24,468 nucleotides of DNA, taken from positions 1 through 24,468 of IMG/VR virus record IMGVR_UViG_3300033553_000177; one strand, written 5' to 3'. The notes below the pieces were generated by a model that was given only the letters and a program-made list of their open reading frames with translations, had not been told where the DNA came from and did no database searches. A program made the position numbers and the translations under genes. Origin of the DNA: a virus. Below, piece after piece: positions 3,557 through 17,393 of this stretch. Every line of letters starts with the position of its first letter. Positions within the stretch are counted from its first letter, which is position 1.

Positions 3557-4021
3557 ATGTCAGAACAAAAGCCAAAATGTAGCATACTGATCGCACCGGA
3601 AAAGGATTCAAAGAATCTCGCCCGGACCGTGATATCACTATTCACAAAGTCGGACCACATTAAATCGCTCGAGATCATAATCGGGCTCTATCCTGGGGAA
3701 TCAGAGAACCGAGATCTCCAGGCGTTTTTCATGGCGATAGGCGCTCTCACGAGTGGCGTATTTCAGTTCCAGGAGATACCGGAGGACATGACGGATCCAG
3801 ACGATGTATTAAATCGCCTGGCCGAATATTCCCTGGGTGATTTCATTCTCCCACTACGAGATGGCGCTCACATCACGCAGAACCACTGGGACACCGAGTT
3901 TATTAACGGAATAGATGGGACTGTTCTCCGGACCGATTTCACGAACTGGCCCGTTTATTTTGTAACCCGATCCGAATACGAGCGTAATTTCAAAGTCGCA
4001 CCAGTGGAGGATCTCGTATGA
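3557..4021 (+). CDS. Short GT-A-like (glycosyltransferase family 2-like) protein
   Basis: A 154-aa protein. The N-terminus has the order expected of a GT-A nucleotide-sugar fold: a strand (CSILIAPEKDS), a helix with LARTVISLF, then a second strand LEIIIGLYPG. The region around residues 92-105 (LGDFILPLRDGAHIT) sits where GT2 enzymes carry their DxD and following segment, but a clear DxD is missing, and at 154 aa it lacks the acceptor domain of normal GT2 enzymes. It may be a reduced or non-catalytic GT-like protein. It lies between the dehydratase and groES and overlaps groES by 4 bases (ATGA). The fold is inferred; no database check was possible. Confidence 0.45.
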   Translation: MSEQKPKCSILIAPEKDSKNLARTVISLFTKSDHIKSLEIIIGLYPGESENRDLQAFFMAIGALTSGVFQFQEIPEDMTDPDDVLNRLAEYSLGDFILPLRDGAHITQNHWDTEFINGIDGTVLRTDFTNWPVYFVTRSEYERNFKVAPVEDLV

Positions 4022-4272
4022 TCGTCCCACTAGGAGCGCGCATTGTCGCCGTAGCGGAAAAGCCGGCGACCACCACCGCCGGCGGCCTGGAGTTATCCAC
4101 AGGCTCCCAGGATAAGTCATATATCGCAGAAGTGGCCGCAGTCGGTCCGGATGTGTTGCATATCAAAAAAGGCGATCGGATCGTCTATAAAGAGTCGCTC
4201 ACTCATCCGATCAAACTCGAGCAGAGTGAATATATTATTTTAAATGAGGAGGACGTCCTCGGGACGGTGTAG
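4018..4272 (+). CDS. groES: Co-chaperonin GroES (Cpn10), phage-encoded
   Basis: 84 aa, slightly shorter than bacterial GroES (about 95). The family pattern is clear: MIVPLGARIVAV at the start, a threonine-rich mobile loop with GGLEL (residues 22-26), then IAEVAAVGPD, KKGDRIVYK, and YIILNEEDVLGTV at the end, matching the classic -VGDKV-, -EYLILRE-DILG- motifs. It should cap the GroEL ring next door. The mobile-loop tripeptide normally reads I-V/I-L; here it is L-E-L (residues 24-26), an acidic change at the contact with the GroEL apical groove. It starts in an ATGA overlap and its stop lies 2 bases before groEL, so the three genes are probably coupled. An exact TTATCCACA motif lies inside it at 4093-4101. 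Confidence 0.93.
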   Translation: MIVPLGARIVAVAEKPATTTAGGLELSTGSQDKSYIAEVAAVGPDVLHIKKGDRIVYKESLTHPIKLEQSEYIILNEEDVLGTV

Positions 4273-4274
4273 TT

Positions 4275-5855
4275 ATGGGAAAAAAGATTTTTTACAATGA
4301 TGATGCAAGGGCTCGCATCCTAGCGGGCGCAGAGATGCTCTATAACGCGGTGAAAGTAACGTATGGTCCAAAGGGCGGAAACGTTATCATCAGCGGCGAC
4401 TATGGGGGTCCTACGGTTACTCATGATGGCGTAACAGTCGCAGAGTCGATCGATATTCAGGATGTCGACGATAGCACTCTCGGATCCAAACAAGGCGCAG
4501 AGCTCATCAAACAGGCCGCACAGAATCTCAATAAAGCAGCCGGCGACGGGACCACGACTGTAACGATTCTCACATACCAAATCCTCCAGGAGGCTAATCG
4601 ATTGATAGCAGCCGGTGAGAACCCGCAGCAATTACGCAAAGAGCTTGAGGCGGCCAAAGATCAGGCGCTCGAACTACTCGCCAAACTATCAGAGGCAATC
4701 ACTCCAGATGGTGATCGTGTGGCTCAACTCGCATCGATAAGCGCCGGGGATCCTAAGATCGGACAACTGATCGCAGACATTATTAAAAAGATCGGCAGCG
4801 ATGGAGTCGTAACTGTTGAAACTAGCCAGGGGCTCGAGCTAGAATCTGAGATCGTCAAAGGGTATACGTTCGCCCGGGGATTCGTGTCTCAGTACATGAT
4901 GACGGATCAGGCTCGCCAGGAGGCAGTCTACACGAATGCGGATATCCTCATCACTGATAAAAGGCTCTCGAATATTATGGAGATCCTCCCATTTATCGAA
5001 AAACTCGGCCAGGCCGGCAAAAAAGATCTCGTCATTATTGCCGATGATATCGATGGAGAGGTCCTGAGTACGCTTATCATTAACAAGGTGAAAGGCATAT
5101 TTAACGCCGTAGCCATCAAGGCTCCGGCCTATGGTGATCGTCGGGTCCAGACGCTCCAGGACATCGCTATTCTTACCGGCGGGACTGTTGTCAGCGATAC
5201 AATGGGACATAAGTTCGAGGAGCTCGAATTGTCGGTCCTGGGATCAGCCGCGAAAGTGATCGTCGGAAAAGATGAGACAACGATCATCGATGGTAAAGGC
5301 GCCCAGGAGGATATCGATTCTCGCATCGCAGAGATCCGCTCAAAGCACAAACTCGAGGAATACGATAAAGAGTTCGCAGAACAGCGCGCGGGCGCTCTAG
5401 CGGGCCAGGTGGCGGTTATTAGAGTAGGCGGCGCAACCGAAACCGAAATCGAGGAAAAGAAATTCCGTGTCGATGATGCAGTCGCAGCAACAAAGGCCGC
5501 ACTCGCAGAGGGTATCGTGGCCGGTGGTGGCGTAACGCTTGTCAATATAGCCGGGAGTATGACTCGCAAAACAACGGGCGCACAGCTCCTCGTAAAGGCA
5601 TTTAAACAGCCATTCCTCGTGCTTATGGAGAACTCAGGCATTAACGGCCAGGCAGAGATCAATCGAATAACCGCAGCCCAGGGAATGGGAATCGACGTCA
5701 ACCATCCAGACGATGCCGAACTCATCGATCTAAAAGCGGCCGGCGTTATTGATCCGGTCCGAGTAACTCGAGAGGCGATTATGAATGCCGTCTCTATCGC
5801 AGCAACCGCGGCAACAATGGGCGCTCTCGTCGTGGATGTCCCGGAGTCGAAGTAA
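4275..5855 (+). CDS. groEL: Chaperonin GroEL (Cpn60), phage-encoded
   Basis: A full-length group I chaperonin, 526 aa, that folds proteins in a double ring with GroES. Motifs in order: KVTYGPKGGNV (residues 27-37), THDGVTVAESI (49-59), AAGDGTTT (88-95) with Asp91 of the ATP site, an apical domain with intact length, VRVTRE near the C-terminus, and VDDAVAATKAALAEGIVAGGG (399-419) carrying Asp401, equivalent to E. coli Asp398. The protein ends at VVDVPESK, without the Gly-Gly-Met tail of E. coli GroEL. It has little ribosome-binding sequence of its own and starts 2 bases after groES, so coupling is likely. The intact catalytic residues suggest an active enzyme. The most likely clients are the phage coat or other head proteins, as in phages that need or bring chaperonins; that is inference. 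Confidence 0.97.
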   Translation: MGKKIFYNDDARARILAGAEMLYNAVKVTYGPKGGNVIISGDYGGPTVTHDGVTVAESIDIQDVDDSTLGSKQGAELIKQAAQNLNKAAGDGTTTVTILTYQILQEANRLIAAGENPQQLRKELEAAKDQALELLAKLSEAITPDGDRVAQLASISAGDPKIGQLIADIIKKIGSDGVVTVETSQGLELESEIVKGYTFARGFVSQYMMTDQARQEAVYTNADILITDKRLSNIMEILPFIEKLGQAGKKDLVIIADDIDGEVLSTLIINKVKGIFNAVAIKAPAYGDRRVQTLQDIAILTGGTVVSDTMGHKFEELELSVLGSAAKVIVGKDETTIIDGKGAQEDIDSRIAEIRSKHKLEEYDKEFAEQRAGALAGQVAVIRVGGATETEIEEKKFRVDDAVAATKAALAEGIVAGGGVTLVNIAGSMTRKTTGAQLLVKAFKQPFLVLMENSGINGQAEINRITAAQGMGIDVNHPDDAELIDLKAAGVIDPVRVTREAIMNAVSIAATAATMGALVVDVPESK

Positions 5856-6965: not shown

Positions 6966-6995
6966 TAGCGGACACGATACCGCGTTAAAAACGGA
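6966..6995 (+). repeat. Hairpin leader motif, copy 1 (before small terminase gene)
   Basis: The leader contains TAGCGGACACGATACCGC followed by GTTAAAAACGG. A near-identical block occurs at 11915-11943 before the scaffold gene. GCGG can pair with CCGC, and CGTT with AACG just downstream, so two small alternative hairpins are possible. Each copy sits about 15-20 bases before the start codon and next to the ribosome-binding site, suggesting shared control of two late gene groups. Confidence 0.6.
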
Positions 6996-7008: not shown

Positions 7009-7674
7009 ATGGCCGATCCAACAAATGCACCAGACAATCAACCAGACGAGCCGGAGAACACTCCGGACCTCACAGCCCCTCGATCGGGCCGGCCATTCTT
7101 ATTCACAGATCCGAAAGAGCTCGCGATGAAAATCCAGAACTATTTCGATAATTGTGATCCCCACATCGAAACTCAACAGGTCGAGAACGGCCGTAATAAA
7201 GACAATAAAACGATCTGGGCCGAGCGCGAAGTTATGAGCGAACAAGTTCCTTATGCAATCACAGATCTCGCTCGAGCCCTAAAAGTCTCACGATCAACAC
7301 TCAATAATTATCGTAAACCTGAGCATTATACGGATGAAATACCTTACGACGTCCGTCAAGAATTAATCGACACTATAGAGGATGCAGTCCAAAGGATCGA
7401 GGGATTCAACGAACGACAACTCCACAAGAACGGAATCGCAAACGGAATCAAATTCAACTTAACGAATAATTTCGGATGGGTGGATAAGTCCGTCGTCGAC
7501 TCAAACGTTCGATCAGTGGAGAGTGATCTCGATGATCTCGACGCTATCGATGGCCGGGACACTGTAGCCGATGCAGCAAAGGCAGAACTCGCCGCGGCAG
7601 ACGCTAAGATCGAACCACCAAAAGAGACGGAGGCCCTGGATGATAAAGACCCGGGATCCCCGACTCAGGAATAA
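7009..7674 (+). CDS. Terminase small subunit
   Basis: 221 aa, DNA-packaging gp3/TerS type. After an acidic, proline-rich N-terminus come SGRPFLFTDPKELAMKI (about 26-42), an HTH (residues 83-101, AITDLARALKVSRSTLNNY), and the distinctive later half with RIEGFNERQLHKNGIANGIKF followed by NLTNNFGWVDKS. It should recognise the packaging site and recruit the large subunit. The start has AAAAGGGGAATCAC upstream. Its C-terminal acidic tail overlaps the large-subunit gene by 35 bases in another frame. Confidence 0.85.
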   Translation: MADPTNAPDNQPDEPENTPDLTAPRSGRPFLFTDPKELAMKIQNYFDNCDPHIETQQVENGRNKDNKTIWAEREVMSEQVPYAITDLARALKVSRSTLNNYRKPEHYTDEIPYDVRQELIDTIEDAVQRIEGFNERQLHKNGIANGIKFNLTNNFGWVDKSVVDSNVRSVESDLDDLDAIDGRDTVADAAKAELAAADAKIEPPKETEALDDKDPGSPTQE

Positions 7675-9441: not shown

Positions 9442-10917
9442 ATGCAAGATGATAACCCGCTAGTATTCCCTAAACAGATCGATAAGGCGCGACTCGAGCG
9501 CTATCGGCACTATGACGAATTATACGAGGGCGAGCATTTCGAGGCCTTTTCTGTTAAGATCCCGGGAGAATTCTCATCTCAATATAAAAAACTCCGATAT
9601 ATTACGGCCAATTTCGCCGGACTTATGAGCCGCGTTGTTGCCGATATGCTATTCGGTGAGGCGATCACGATCGATGTTGAGGAGGATAAGAATCAGAAGT
9701 TTATCGATGGCCTGGTCCATCAGAACGACCTCATTAATCAGCTTTACGAGAGCTCGATCATCAATTCCCGCCGCGGGATGGATGTCTTTAAAATGCGAAT
9801 CGGCAAACGCAATCCCCTCGATCCTACGGCAAAGGCCGAGATCATTATCGAGCAAGTCGGGGCCCAGATCTATTTCCCTCAATTCGATAACAAGGCAGCC
9901 CGGAACGTAACGACTCAGGATATTATCGCGACGACATTCGCCCAGAACGGCAAAACCTATCTCCACAAGGAAACACATCAGCCCGGCCAGATCACGCATG
10001 AGGTGTTCGAGTATGATCTCAAACAAGGGAAAATCATTTCGGCCGAGATGCCGGAGGATTTCGGATTCCTCCCGATCGAAAAGACTCTCGTCAATCGATC
10101 ACTCGTATTCGCTATCCCAAACTATCGGGATGGTAAATACTGGGGACCATCAGACTATAAGGATCTCGAGTCCCTATTTTTCGCATTGAATAACCGACTC
10201 ACAAAGACCGACAATATCCTCGACAAGCACTCGGACCCTATTCTGGCCGTCCCTCCAGGCGTTATCGATGAGGATGGTAAGGTTAAAAAGGAATCTCTCG
10301 GCATGTTCGAGGTAGATAACGAAAATCCCGGATTCAACAAACCGGAGTATATCGTCTGGAACGCGAACCTCGATAGCGCATTCGTAGAGATCGAGAAATT
10401 GATCGAGATGCTATTCATGTTCTCCGAGATCGCACCGGCAACAATGGGCGCAGACAAAAACGGCCAGGCAGAATCCGGCCGCGCTCTCAAATTCAAACTC
10501 CTCGCCACTATCCGCAAGCGTAACCGAAAGATCTCATATTACGATCTCCTGATTAAAGAGATTCTCCAAACGGCCCAGGAACTCGCGATCGCCTGGAAAA
10601 TTGATATCGATGGTGTACGCCCTAGCGCGGCAGAACGTCCGAAAATTCAATGGGGTGATGGCGTTATTAACGACGAAACCGAGCAAGTCGAGAACGCCAC
10701 AAAGCGTATCGATGCCGGCATTTCATCTCGTGCAGATGAGATCGCTCGCCTGGATGATATCACGCCAGAGGAGGCTCGAAAGAAAGTCCAAGAGATCGAC
10801 GACGAATCAGGTCCTAAACTCCCCGATCTCGGAAATCCTGGCGGCACTCCGAATCCTCCAACTCCACCAACGCCTCCGGGCCCTAACGATCCAACACCGC
10901 CAACACCGGGAGCCTAG
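9442..10917 (+). CDS. Portal protein (SPP1 gp6-like)
   Basis: 491 aa, normal for SPP1-type portals, forming the dodecameric DNA gate at one capsid vertex. The N-terminal part carries RLERYRHYDELYEGEH and a helix TANFAGLMSRVVADMLFGE; the central clip/stem region contains NRLTKTDNILDKHSDPILAVP, and then ESGRALKFKLLATIRKRNRK, which is typical of the family. The last 35 residues form a Pro/Thr/Gly-rich tail (repeated P-T-P-P) not needed for the portal fold. The Pro-rich scaffold N-terminus at 11954 looks similar. Translation probably begins on a leaderless mRNA (see the promoter at 9427). A 3-base gap leads to the minor capsid gene. Confidence 0.9.
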   Translation: MQDDNPLVFPKQIDKARLERYRHYDELYEGEHFEAFSVKIPGEFSSQYKKLRYITANFAGLMSRVVADMLFGEAITIDVEEDKNQKFIDGLVHQNDLINQLYESSIINSRRGMDVFKMRIGKRNPLDPTAKAEIIIEQVGAQIYFPQFDNKAARNVTTQDIIATTFAQNGKTYLHKETHQPGQITHEVFEYDLKQGKIISAEMPEDFGFLPIEKTLVNRSLVFAIPNYRDGKYWGPSDYKDLESLFFALNNRLTKTDNILDKHSDPILAVPPGVIDEDGKVKKESLGMFEVDNENPGFNKPEYIVWNANLDSAFVEIEKLIEMLFMFSEIAPATMGADKNGQAESGRALKFKLLATIRKRNRKISYYDLLIKEILQTAQELAIAWKIDIDGVRPSAAERPKIQWGDGVINDETEQVENATKRIDAGISSRADEIARLDDITPEEARKKVQEIDDESGPKLPDLGNPGGTPNPPTPPTPPGPNDPTPPTPGA

Positions 10918-11914: not shown

Positions 11915-11943
11915 TAGCGGACACGGACCGCGTTAAAAACGGA
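11915..11943 (+). repeat. Hairpin leader motif, copy 2 (before scaffold gene)
   Basis: TAGCGGACACGGACCGC then GTTAAAAACGGA, matching copy 1 at 6966-6995 with one base missing and one changed. The GCGG/CCGC pairing is kept despite the changes in the loop, which suggests selection for the stem. The GGAGGG ribosome-binding site follows at once. Confidence 0.6.
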
Positions 11944-11953
11944 GGGAGATCAG

Positions 11954-12664
11954 ATGCCAGAACCTATACAACCAACGCCACCAGTAGCAACACCACCAAC
12001 GGGGACACCCCCTGTTGATCCAGGAGCAACGCCTCCGCCAGCAACGCCGCCGACGCCACCAACTGGAGAGGTAGACCTAAAAACTCTATCAGCGGAACAG
12101 CTACAGCAAGTTTTAGAGAACCCGAATCTCTGGAATCTACCACGCGTCAAAGAATTGCGCGATCAAGCGGCCGAGGCTAAAACCCTCAAGGACGCAGCGA
12201 CCGCCGCAGAGAATAAACGCCTGGAGGATAACAAAGAATTCGAGACACTCGCGGAGTCCCGCAAAACGGACCTCGAGACGGCCCAGGGCCAGATCAAAAC
12301 TATGCGGATCGATCAAGCACTCACGAACAAATTAGTTCCCGAGGGCATTGTAGACCTGGATGCGGCACTCAAGCTCGTAGACCGTAGTAAACTCACGATC
12401 GACGATAATGGAGTGGTAAGTGGTATAGATGAAGTCCTCGCATCTCTCAAAACGGACAAAGCTTATTTATTTAACAATACGGGTACACCTCCAGATCCTA
12501 GTCTCGGAACGCCATCCAATCCAACAGGCGGCACTCCACCAACGGGACCGGCTAAGTTTAAACGAAGTCAGCTCCGGGACGCGAAATTCTACACGGAAAA
12601 TCGCGACGAGATTATAAAAGCCCAAGCGGCCGGACTTATCGAGGATGATATCACGCCCAAATAA
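11954..12664 (+). CDS. Capsid scaffolding protein
   Basis: 236 aa directly upstream of the coat gene, the standard place for a scaffold. Residues 1-38 are a Pro/Thr-rich low-complexity segment; residues 45-120 form a highly charged helix with coiled-coil character (QAAEAKTLKDAATAAENKRL and on), as in GP20/DUF4355-type scaffolds. A second Pro/Gly-rich linker near 176-200 is followed by a short helical C-terminal domain that could bind the coat protein. Scaffolds assemble the prohead and then leave. The ribosome-binding site is GGAGGGAGATCAG. The assignment rests on position and composition more than on motifs. Confidence 0.75.
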   Translation: MPEPIQPTPPVATPPTGTPPVDPGATPPPATPPTPPTGEVDLKTLSAEQLQQVLENPNLWNLPRVKELRDQAAEAKTLKDAATAAENKRLEDNKEFETLAESRKTDLETAQGQIKTMRIDQALTNKLVPEGIVDLDAALKLVDRSKLTIDDNGVVSGIDEVLASLKTDKAYLFNNTGTPPDPSLGTPSNPTGGTPPTGPAKFKRSQLRDAKFYTENRDEIIKAQAAGLIEDDITPK

Positions 12665-14655: not shown

Positions 14656-14728
14656 TTATCCACAGTTTATCCACGGGGCGATTTCAATCTGTTAGCCCTG
14701 TGGATAACTCTGCTCTATATGGGGATAA
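14656..14728. promoter_or_regulatory. Cluster of DnaA-box-like motifs
   Basis: In 73 bases of gene-free DNA: TTATCCACA exact at 14656-14664, TTATCCACG at 14667-14675 (one mismatch), TGTGGATAA exact on the other strand at 14699-14707, and TGGGGATAA at 14720-14728 (one mismatch, minus). This is the bacterial DnaA-box consensus. It may be a replication origin using host DnaA or a DnaA-controlled promoter region for the glycosyltransferase operon. No adjacent AT-rich unwinding region is obvious. Confidence 0.55.
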
Positions 14729-14736
14729 CTTGCTTA

Positions 14737-14745
14737 TGATATTAT
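14737..14745 (+). promoter_or_regulatory. Promoter of the glycosyltransferase operon
   Basis: TGATATTAT, an extended -10 identical to that of the portal gene. Six bases later is ATG 14752. The transcript should therefore start at that ATG and carry the structured leader. Confidence 0.65.
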
Positions 14746-14751
14746 AGATCT

Positions 14752-14862
14752 ATGCAGCGGCTAAGCAATAAAACGAATCAGATATTTAAATGCCTCCAGG
14801 TCATTAGTTTAGCCGCGAATCCCTGGGGGCATTCAAGTATCGGAGGCGTATCATGCATCTAG
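14752..14862 (+). CDS. Possible leaderless upstream ORF, 36 aa, within the structured leader
   Basis: ATG 14752 lies 6 bases after the -10 box, the spacing shared by the leaderless genes here. The frame runs 36 codons to TAG 14860-14862, passing 10 bases over the start of the glycosyltransferase gene at 14853. The peptide begins MQRLSNKTNQIFKCLQVISL; it has no known motif. Ribosomes reading it would unfold both stems of the leader and end next to the downstream ribosome-binding site, which is what a translational control ORF would do. It may also be fortuitous, since the RNA structure constrains the same bases. Confidence 0.35.
   Translation: MQRLSNKTNQIFKCLQVISLAANPWGHSSIGGVSCI
14757..14833 (+). 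promoter_or_regulatory. Structured RNA leader with two interlocking stems (pseudoknot topology)
   Basis: Stem 1: GCGGCTAA (14757-14764) with TTAGCCGC (14809-14816), 8 perfect pairs, extendable by one wobble and one GC pair. Stem 2: AATGCCTCCAGG (14789-14800) with CCTGGGGGCATT (14822-14833), 12 pairs including one G-U. The order is 5' arm 1, 5' arm 2, 3' arm 1, 3' arm 2, so the stems cross as in a pseudoknot. If both cannot fit together, they would form a two-state switch. The ribosome-binding site CGGAGG (14841-14846) follows unpaired. It matches no riboswitch I can name. Confidence 0.6.
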
Positions 14863-16040
14863 TCAACAAATTCGATAAAGTCGTCGAGGTCAATGATCCG
14901 ACGAGGATCCGCAAATTCTTAAACAATGGGATGCGGGAGGCCACGCTCGAGGAGATCCAGGAGGACCGGGATCGTCGCATGCAGCAAGTCGCCCAGGCGT
15001 CGATCGCAAGCGGGACCGGATTTTATTATCAAACCGTCCGATCATCTCCGGATGGCTACGGCATGAGTCGCGATATCCTCAAACAGGAGCTATTCAGAAA
15101 AGGCGTATTTTTAACTGAGAATTATTCGGGCCAAAAAGTAGGGCTCTTATATTCCTATCCGTATGGGATCCTCCAAATGCGAAACGATATCCGGATCATC
15201 TATACGATGTTCGAGAGCGACAAGATCCCGGACGACTGGGCCGAATATCTCAAAGCGGCCGATCAGGTCCTCGTCCCCTCGAAGTGGTGTAAAGACGTAT
15301 TCGCAAAGGCCGGCATAGATGCTCAAGTGGTCCCTCTGGGCTATAACGATGAGGCGTTCACCTATGTAGATCGCAAGGTCCCCGTCGAGGAGGGCGAGCC
15401 GTTTACGTTTATCCACTATGACTCATTCAATATCCGCAAGGGATTCTCTCAAGTGCTCGAGGCATTTTCGGCCGAATTTAAAGACAATGAGAATGTAAAA
15501 ATGATCCTAAAAACGGTCCACGAGAAATCGCCGATCCCGATCATGCCATCTCAATATCCGAATATCGAAGTGATCCGGCATCGAATGAGCGAGGAGGACC
15601 TCGTGAAACTACTCGGCCGCGCAAATTGCATGGTGTACCCTAGCCTGGGCGAGGGATTCGGTATCACGCCTCTCGAGGCTATGGCAACCGGCCTCCCGGC
15701 GATCGTTCCGAATGCTCACGGAATATCTGAATATTTCCATCCTGAGTATATGCTCGAGGTAGAGATTGAGGAGATGGTCCCGGCCCTCTATCATCGATTC
15801 AAAGGCCAGAGCGTCGGGAATATGACGGTCCCTAGTGTAGAGGACCTCCGGGAGCAAATGCGCTATGCATTCAATCATCAGCGGGAAATGAAATATCTCG
15901 GGCAAAAAGCGAGCGAATACGTCAAAGCCTACACCTATAAAAAGACCGCAGCGAATCTCGCCGAGATCCTCCAGGCGTGGGATAAAAAGGATGTCGTCAA
16001 GCGCGCAGATAGCAAGTTTTTAATGGTGGAGGAGGTGTAA
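14853..16040 (+). CDS. Glycosyltransferase, GT-B fold (GT4-like)
   Basis: 395 aa, ribosome-binding site GGAGG at 14842-14846. The first 50 residues are a charged extension; after this come an N-terminal Rossmann-like domain, with KAADQVLVPSKWCKDVF near 135-150, and a C-terminal nucleotide-sugar domain with FIHYDSFNIRKGFSQVLEAF. The E-x7-E signature is intact in EGFGITPLE (Glu267 and Glu275) followed by AMATGLPAIVP. It should move an activated sugar onto an acceptor that cannot be told from sequence. It is the first gene of a block of four such proteins. Its expression is probably controlled by the structured leader. Confidence 0.85.
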   Translation: MHLVNKFDKVVEVNDPTRIRKFLNNGMREATLEEIQEDRDRRMQQVAQASIASGTGFYYQTVRSSPDGYGMSRDILKQELFRKGVFLTENYSGQKVGLLYSYPYGILQMRNDIRIIYTMFESDKIPDDWAEYLKAADQVLVPSKWCKDVFAKAGIDAQVVPLGYNDEAFTYVDRKVPVEEGEPFTFIHYDSFNIRKGFSQVLEAFSAEFKDNENVKMILKTVHEKSPIPIMPSQYPNIEVIRHRMSEEDLVKLLGRANCMVYPSLGEGFGITPLEAMATGLPAIVPNAHGISEYFHPEYMLEVEIEEMVPALYHRFKGQSVGNMTVPSVEDLREQMRYAFNHQREMKYLGQKASEYVKAYTYKKTAANLAEILQAWDKKDVVKRADSKFLMVEEV

Positions 16041-16041
16041 G

Positions 16042-16260
16042 ATGGTAAATTGTCCCGGACCACTATTCGAGGGCCAGATCCGGCCTATGGAATCATTCTC
16101 AGCACTCGAGATCCTGGCAGTTCACGGGTATAATCCCGAAACGCCAAAAGTAAAACGCGCGGCGGAATATCTCGAGCTATGGCGCGAGAAATCGATCGAG
16201 GCATCAAAGGCGGCAACCTGGCCGCTCGAGCCTGGCGATAATGCGGAGATCCGTCCGTGA
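16042..16260 (+). CDS. Small hypothetical protein between glycosyltransferases
   Basis: 72 aa, starting 1 base after the preceding stop with GGAGGAGG upstream inside that gene. Mostly helical and charged (YLELWREKSIEASKAA), with a Pro-containing N-terminus. Not recognised. It overlaps the next gene by 4 bases (GTGA), which supports coupled translation and a shared operon. Confidence 0.5.
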   Translation: MVNCPGPLFEGQIRPMESFSALEILAVHGYNPETPKVKRAAEYLELWREKSIEASKAATWPLEPGDNAEIRP

Positions 16261-17393
16261 ATGTCGCCTATTGTGGTCCCCTGTTCGATTACTCCGGATA
16301 TGGAGAGGCGAATCGACACGCCGCCGCAGCACTCCACGCGGCCGGCCTGAATGTGATCGCAGAGCCGGTCCACTATACGACTGAGCCCTCCGATTTCGGC
16401 GCCATAGGGCAGCTCATGGAGCAGCTAACGCACAACACGGGCGACTATGGGATTAAGATCATTCACACGACACCGGATCAATACAAGCGCTATATGGAGC
16501 CTGGCAAATACCACATCGGGCATTTTTTCTGGGAGACTGATCGGGTCCCGGAGGAATTCGCAGCCGGCCTCCGACTCGTCGATGAGATATGGACCGGATC
16601 TGAGGCAAATGCGGACGCGATCCGAAAGTCTGTTCCGGATGCAATAATCAGAGTTTATCCACAGGCTATCGAAACGGAGCGCGAGTGGCCGGAGACACCT
16701 TACGAGATCAATAATTTCGATGGTCATTTATTCTATTCGATATTCGAGTGGACCGATCGTAAAAACCCCCAGGGATTGCTCGATGCATACTGGCACGAGT
16801 TCCAGGACGGCGAGAATGTCGGCCTATTGATTAAAACCTATTTCCGCAATTTCGATCTCCAGAATAAGCGTATGATCCGGGAGCAAATCGAGGCGTTCAA
16901 AAAGAAATCAGGCCTAACGAAGTTCCCTCGAGTTTTTCTATACATGGATCTCATGGACCGCTCTCACGTTATGCGATTGCATAAGACCGGCGATACCTAT
17001 GTGAGCCCACACCGCGGCGAGGGATGGGGATTGCCGATCGCAGAGGCTATCCTAGCCGGCCATCCTGTTATTACGACGGGTTATGGCGGGATCTCCGAAT
17101 GGCTCCAGAATATTAATGGCGCGATGATCCTGGACTATGAGATGGTCCCACTCCGGGGAATGGATCACTCGGCCCGATGGTATGGCCGCGATCAAAAGTG
17201 GGCGGATCCCCGTATCGATCAACTCCGAACGTCTATGAGGTGGGCCTATGAAAAGACATCAAATGTCGAGATGCTCCGGCAGCGCGGCGAGGATCTAGTG
17301 ATCTCTCAATTCAACCTCAAAGCGGTAGGCGACGAAATGGCCGGCCGACTCAAGCGGATCGAATCAGCGTTCGCGAATGCGAGGAAACGATGA
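16257..17393 (+). CDS. Glycosyltransferase, GT-B fold (GT4-like), GTG start
   Basis: 378 aa, starting at GTG in a GTGA overlap with the preceding stop. N-terminal glycine motif CGPLFDYSGYGEANRHA (6-22), FFWETDRVPEEF (90-101) and GSEANADAIRKS mark the GT4 N-terminal domain; YSIFEWTDRKNPQGLLDAY (160-178) begins the donor domain. The E-x7-E signature is EGWGLPIAE (Glu255, Glu263) followed by AILAGHPVITT. All expected features are intact, so it is likely active. Acceptor unknown. An exact TTATCCACA motif lies inside the gene (16655-16663). Confidence 0.87.
   Translation: MNVAYCGPLFDYSGYGEANRHAAAALHAAGLNVIAEPVHYTTEPSDFGAIGQLMEQLTHNTGDYGIKIIHTTPDQYKRYMEPGKYHIGHFFWETDRVPEEFAAGLRLVDEIWTGSEANADAIRKSVPDAIIRVYPQAIETEREWPETPYEINNFDGHLFYSIFEWTDRKNPQGLLDAYWHEFQDGENVGLLIKTYFRNFDLQNKRMIREQIEAFKKKSGLTKFPRVFLYMDLMDRSHVMRLHKTGDTYVSPHRGEGWGLPIAEAILAGHPVITTGYGGISEWLQNINGAMILDYEMVPLRGMDHSARWYGRDQKWADPRIDQLRTSMRWAYEKTSNVEMLRQRGEDLVISQFNLKAVGDEMAGRLKRIESAFANARKR

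Follow-up and report, generated by a model that had tools for sequence, protein, structure and literature searches.

A candidate attenuator-like leader with two crossing stems ahead of a phage glycosyltransferase operon

Introduction

In leader-peptide attenuators of the trp/his type, a short ORF lies over stems that are alternatives to each other, and a terminator stands ahead of the first gene. The phage leader described here shares with them the short ORF, the alternative stems and, in a related phage (L029), a putative terminator at that place. It differs in that its two stems, S1 and S2, have no strand in common and would compete only via their pseudoknot order, in that it carries no regulatory codon run, and in that the leader of the phage analysed in full lacks a U tract.

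The leaderless polycysteine ORFs of mycobacteria (Canestrari et al. 2020) are, according to an excerpt of the review PMC9031893, cysteine-dependent attenuators. In that excerpt as in our locus a leaderless short ORF (here a predicted one) stands before an operon, with a proposed role for its translation in controlling the gene that follows; our ORFs differ by having no run of cysteine codons, by the long crossing stems laid over them, and by belonging to phages. Excerpts of PMC12548453 describe translational coupling by unfolding, the efficiency of which falls with longer overlap. Here, too, an upstream ORF overlaps the downstream start and crosses a hairpin beside the Shine-Dalgarno sequence (SD); the difference is that this upstream ORF is a leaderless mini-ORF, as predicted, and that a second stem, S1, crosses the hairpin. 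Its stop lies near the downstream start, at an overlap of 10 bases that is weaker than the common 4-base one (PMC12548453, excerpt).

Two riboswitch systems are also alike in part. The HMP-PP (thiS) riboswitch, in the excerpt of PMC6478431, has a terminator hairpin and an alternative state with a possible pseudoknot. Our leader would share both features, with the putative terminator hairpin in L029, and differs in having no sequence-conserved loop, no thiamin genes and no Rfam match, and in that an ORF covers the element. In M. tuberculosis ppe2, a riboswitch controls a translated upstream ORF that extends over the next start and on which expression of the following gene depends (PMC11260477, excerpt); a structured leader and an upstream ORF overlapping the next start are common to both loci, whereas ppe2, in the same excerpt, has a B12 aptamer, an SD-led upstream ORF and a 4-base AUGA overlap. 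No match to our element was recognised in the open-licence literature, covered mostly at the level of titles and the beginnings of abstracts, and the excerpts of two further papers (PMC13236596 and PMC9373788) do not alter the reading of the leader. A preceding sequence-only reading had been aware of no described element of this form. This holds for the exact combination of features only, as leaderless upstream-ORF attenuators and terminators with a pseudoknot-containing alternative state have both been described.

Results

The window, i.e. the whole stretch of DNA analysed, is a phage contig of 24.5 kb (24,468 nt; IMGVR_UViG_3300033553_000177). It encodes portal, minor capsid, scaffold, P22-type capsid, terminase (named from position, sequence and relatives, with no family search behind the name) and a LysM-CHAP endolysin, followed by a run of glycosyltransferases (GT). 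The crossing-stem leader sits between the endolysin and the first GT, a GT4-type enzyme and first gene of the operon (14853..16040, + strand); a second GT follows at 16257-17393. From the look of their translations, putative GroES- and GroEL-like genes of the phage's own were called at 4018-5855. The first ORF of the window starts with MCIRDR (13-30), which may be a sign of sequencing-adapter residue at contig ends.

On the + strand, 14737..14751 comprises the extended -10 box TGATATTAT and the 6 nt that separate it from the ATG of a predicted leaderless ORF of 36 codons, MQRLSNKTNQIFKCLQVISLAANPWGHSSIGGVSCI (14752..14862, + strand), which overlaps the GT start by 10 bases. Because the box lies only 6 nt from this ATG (7 nt in L029), the transcript is predicted to start at the ATG itself. 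The exact 10-mer TGATATTATA, which starts 15 bases upstream of the ATG with its -10 hexamer at the 6-nt spacing, occurs in 3 copies in the window (0.09 expected), one of which precedes the portal gene ATG at 9442 at nearly equal spacing. Among 37 related GT loci, chosen by hand with start codons set by hand and duplicates omitted (distant loci or those without a clear start, such as L023, L156, L157, L160, L161 and L164, were left out), 24 carry a TANNNT box at a distance of 5-8 nt from the GT ATG and lack an SD, against a background of ~8% of upstream positions for the box. From these 24 loci a leaderless GT is predicted to be the usual arrangement in relatives. An SD precedes the GT in 8 of the 37, including the window and L029, and in these two phages a mini-ORF leader appears to occupy that place, with the GT shifted to an SD-led start. 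The leaderless start proposed by the sequence-only reading is therefore favoured by its context, i.e. by the portal box and the 24 GT loci, and the start at 14752 itself remains a prediction from the letters.

The stems and their crossing order within a span of 77 bases agreed to the base with the earlier coordinates. S1 pairs a 5' arm at mini-ORF codons 2-5 (GCGGCTAAGC, 14757..14766, + strand) with a 3' arm within the S2 loop (GTTTAGCCGC, 14807..14816, + strand) and has 10 pairs, 8 of them Watson-Crick. The main helix of S2, S2a, joins AATGCCTCCAGG (14789..14800, + strand) with CCTGGGGGCATT (14822..14833, + strand), the arm whose counterpart in L029 is followed by TTTTT. Its reported G-U pair (T14794.G14828) was found, as were the connecting loops of 6 nt (14801-14806) and 5 nt (14817-14821), the mini-ORF ATG (14752) and the overlap of 10 bases with the GT ATG (14853). 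Two features had been missed. S2 extends as an AU-rich helix of 7 pairs, S2b, formed by GATATTT (14781..14787, + strand) and AAGTATC (14835..14841, + strand), up to the edge of the GGAGG that serves as SD of the GT gene (14842..14846, + strand). Moreover, ATGCCTCC (14790-14797) can pair alternatively with GGAGGCGT (14842-14849), which includes the SD; ATGCCTCC is thus the strand common to S2a and the SD pairing in the window. Since it has this second partner, S1 and the SD pairing might also be present together, in a looser pseudoknot.

The phage L029 (IMGVR_UViG_3300006805_002624), with a terminase 74% and a GT 58% identical to those of the window, repeats the arrangement: an inverted TTATCCACAG pair, a -10 box, an ATG 7 nt on, and an ORF of 31 codons whose stop lies 10 bases into the GT, the same overlap as in the window. 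S1 (GCGGCAAGG/CCTTGCCGC) is in the same place as in the window, the crossing S2 (GCCCACAG/CTGTGGGC) is followed by TTTTT, and an AU-rich S2b ends at the SD, which it reaches in both phages, ahead of the GT. Of 26 pairs compared between the two leaders, 10 show two-sided changes, 6 show one-sided changes and 0 are broken; S1 contributes 10 pairs (2 two-sided, 2 one-sided), S2a 9 (4 and 2) and S2b 7 (4 and 2). The registers of S2a and S2b were fitted by hand, and the other S2a register (10 pairs) gives 3 two-sided changes instead of 4. Sliding the partner of S1 or S2a by 1-3 bases broke 4 to 7 of 9 pairs. An RNA-level constraint, suspected earlier from the G-U pair and to be sought as compensatory changes in homologous leaders, is supported accordingly: in the one relative that has the leader, two-sided changes preserve both stems. 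By this comparison of structure and conservation, the crossing-stem leader is very probably a real element conserved in the two phages.

The S2 of L029 with its five U looks like an intrinsic terminator, judged by its letters; its loop of 13 is beyond the reach of a simple terminator scan. In the window no U tract follows S2, and a scan of the + strand from promoter to GT found no terminator. The connecting loops next to these stems of 8-12 pairs are 6 and 5 nt in the window and 3 and 1 nt in L029; at 3 and 1 nt, S1 and S2 are likely to be mutually exclusive in L029.

The window leader forms crossing stems of at least 8 and at least 12 pairs, G-U allowed, as did only 2 of 5000 dinucleotide shuffles (107 of 5000 at at least 8 and at least 8). 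Its fold energy has a z of -4.23, with 0 of 200 shuffles equally good. For L029, Watson-Crick crossing stems of 9 and 8 pairs arose in 4 of 60,000 dinucleotide shuffles and of at least 8 and at least 8 in 1 of 5000. When G-U pairs are allowed its shuffles cross often (1030 of 5000 at at least 8/at least 8, 212 of 5000 at at least 9/at least 9), and its fold is moderately stable only (z -2.18; 5 of 200 shuffles equally good). A scan of the window and six related loci (217,904 strand-bases) for a Watson-Crick stem of at least 8 crossed by a G-U-allowed stem of at least 12 found 4 places, two being the leaders ahead of the GT in the window and in L029.

In folds of growing prefixes, S1 appeared at 65 nt and S2 from 82 nt in the window, and at 56 nt and from 65 nt, respectively, in L029. 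The end state of folding is S2 in both phages, and nested ensembles give S2 a probability of 1.0 and S1 one of 0.0. In the full fold the SD is partly paired, and masking the 5' part in silico does not free it cleanly.

Further relatives were sought at several levels. A DNA search of the phage collection gave no match, a scan with the capsid protein gave one distant relative, and a scan with the second GT gave none. The terminase scan yielded four near relatives (L026, L027, L028 and L031), whose contigs stop before the leader. Further GT scans recovered the L029 contig only, and a pattern scan for a DnaA-box pair plus GCGGC matched 81 stretches. When seven window proteins were run by tblastn against L039-L117, with L027 compared separately, the L029 contig was the only full relative seen, and the L106 contig held a 40% identical GT. 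A broad GT profile collected 45 loci, among which the leader was found in L029 only.

In the phylum that includes a Gottesmanbacteria MAG, 2 of 379 genomes had GT relatives, as did, in sets overlapping with the phylum set, 1 of 373 genomes of the MAG's class and 1 of 8 of another class. GT relatives 44-46% identical (L037; G001, G097) belong to two genomes of one phylum, one being the Gottesmanbacteria MAG itself, and the leader is absent from both genomes with GT relatives. Gottesmanbacteria belong to the Patescibacteria. Since few genomes have GT relatives and neither of the two has the leader, a patescibacterial host for the phage is suggested only weakly.

Discussion

With a probability of about 0.5, we read the element as an attenuator-like leader in which a ribosome on the leaderless mini-ORF decides between S1 and S2 and thereby gates the GT operon. 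We infer the order of events, the ribosome footprint and the direction of control, as we do the leaderless start. Transcription would start at the ATG of the mini-ORF. The first S1 arm occupies codons 2-5 and would therefore be hidden under an initiating ribosome. During transcription S1 would form first, and S2, arriving 10-20 nt later, is predicted to displace it. A ribosome on the first codons would block S1, so that S2 would form and GT output would fall. In L029 S2 would act as an intrinsic terminator with the second arm of S1 in its loop; in the window it would act as a long hairpin that abuts and partly pairs the SD. The window having no U tract, shut-off there would be translational, an OFF step unlike that of L029. 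A ribosome running through the mini-ORF would melt S2 and reach the overlapping GT start, and with no ribosome S1 would delay S2. The earlier suggestion of a two-state switch run by ribosomes or a ligand may hold for ribosomes; nothing in our analysis favours a ligand.

Several points weigh against the attenuator reading: it is drawn from two phages, the OFF step would differ between them, shuffles of the L029 leader often cross once G-U pairs are allowed, the L029 fold has moderate stability only, the nested ensembles are all S2, the SD does not open cleanly, the codon score of the mini-ORF is not gene-like, the mini-ORF has no run of codons for a single amino acid, and an overlap of 10 bases is poor for reinitiation in the excerpt of PMC12548453.

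It is a tentative and rather doubtful further step to see here a new type of attenuator, in phages possibly infecting Patescibacteria: the shut-off hairpin would capture the transcript's 5' end in its loop, stems sharing no strand would thereby exclude each other, and the switch would be read by a ribosome at a leaderless start. Another phage, L030, would hold an ORF-free version of this loop capture. If the attenuator reading is true, it would give a compact switch design, with competition arising from topology instead of a shared strand. It would tie a topology-based switch to leaderless translation, frequent in this phage group yet little known in its control, and would show how a phage times glycosyltransferases that modify surface or capsid. 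At ~110 nt the leader is small enough to be rebuilt in a reporter, mutation by mutation.

Plain translational coupling is an unlikely account of the same features. The mini-ORF would be a ramp: ribosomes loaded at its leaderless ATG would open the hairpin ahead of the SD and then reinitiate where the mini-ORF overlaps the GT, and S1 would be incidental or would tune the leaderless start. The equal 10-base overlap in the two phages and the abutment of S2b on the SD in both agree with this, and unfolding of a hairpin over a downstream start is a described mechanism (PMC12548453, excerpt). Coupling leaves unexplained, however, why S1 is retained, crosses S2 and covaries (of its 10 pairs, 2 changed on both sides and 2 on one), and why L029 has a terminator with five U.

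The codons of the mini-ORF bear on a second alternative, an RNA switch independent of the ORF. The codon score is -0.165 per codon, below that of all 36-codon pieces of the window's genes (mean 0.348, minimum -0.098); protein-level selection was rejected on this ground, and the mini-ORF is not an ordinary small protein gene. It contains no run of one amino acid's codons, and its cysteine codons (2 of 36; 2 of 31 in L029) are non-adjacent in each phage. Such codons would fit a regulatory ORF in which RNA structure dictates the letters and, equally, an untranslated leader. In the ORF-independent switch a protein, a small molecule or an RNA would pick S1 or S2 and the ATG would be mere first bases of the transcript. 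We consider this quite unlikely. It gains from the HMP-PP riboswitch, with an aptamer and a possible pseudoknot inside a terminator (PMC6478431, excerpt), and from L030, where another gene is preceded by a promoter, an arm at the 5' terminus and a crossing terminator with seven U, and no ATG was seen at the predicted 5' end. It loses by the ORF, open with an equal overlap in both phages, and by the lack of aptamer-like conserved sequence common to the window and L029. Rfam matches at the gathering threshold numbered 0 for the window, L029 and L030, and a tRNA or known RNA family was rejected.

L030 is a related phage with a loop-capture layout like that of the window leader. At L030:1190-1283 a strong -10 box is followed by the 5' arm TAGGATTAGT, which pairs with ACTAATCCTA inside a hairpin loop; the hairpin has 25 pairs, TTTTTTT comes after it, and it lies just upstream of an ATG, with an ORF of 71 aa at 1281. 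The fold of this leader has a z of -7.17, and no relative was found among the collected loci or in the phage collection. A loose scan for a terminator plus crossing arm, covering 2,604,668 strand-bases with redundancy left (eight identifiers omitted as duplicates), gave 21 hits, mostly weak or repetitive.

That the stems are chance repeats without function is very improbable. In 16 loci, Watson-Crick crossings of at least 8/at least 8 within 100 nt have a frequency of about one in 34 kb (6 places, both strands counted for each, in 403,974 strand-bases), and the leader was one pick among many features; its recurrence with different letters at the same place in L029 nevertheless speaks against chance.

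A DNA-level element, for instance an origin of replication or a regulatory palindrome connected with the DnaA-box-like repeats that lie 50-100 bases upstream, is hardly credible: TTATCCAC does have 12 copies in the window (0.64 expected) and the leader has an inverted TTATCCACAG/CTGTGGATAA pair in front of it in the window and L029 alike, yet the motif is scattered across the whole window with no sharp turn of GC skew at the leader, crossing repeats that change letters and stay complementary fit RNA better than a protein-binding site, and the setting of the element between promoter and SD is that of an mRNA leader. A replication origin was rejected for the dispersal of the motif. The repeats next to the leader are TTATCCACA (14656-14664, + strand), TTATCCACG (14667-14675, + strand) and TTATCCACA again (14699-14707, - strand). 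The DnaA-box form TTWTNCACA occurs 14 times in the window (0.67 expected); TTATCCAC/DnaA-box copies lie, e.g., at 4093, 11864, 14656, 16655, 19658, 20060 and 20415, many of them inside genes, and several DnaA-box-like copies read TTATCCACAGG.

A separate element, AGCGG(N)ACG..ACCGCGTWAAAAACGG, was seen at 6967-6994 and 11916-11942 of the window, in two 5' leaders, that of the gene at 7009, ahead of the terminase, and that of the scaffold gene at 11954; it has no Rfam match in the window. There are 8 copies across the window, L026, L027, L028 and L031, and the element is better conserved than the surrounding genes, with blastn pieces of 88-90% (L027, L028, L031) versus ~70%.
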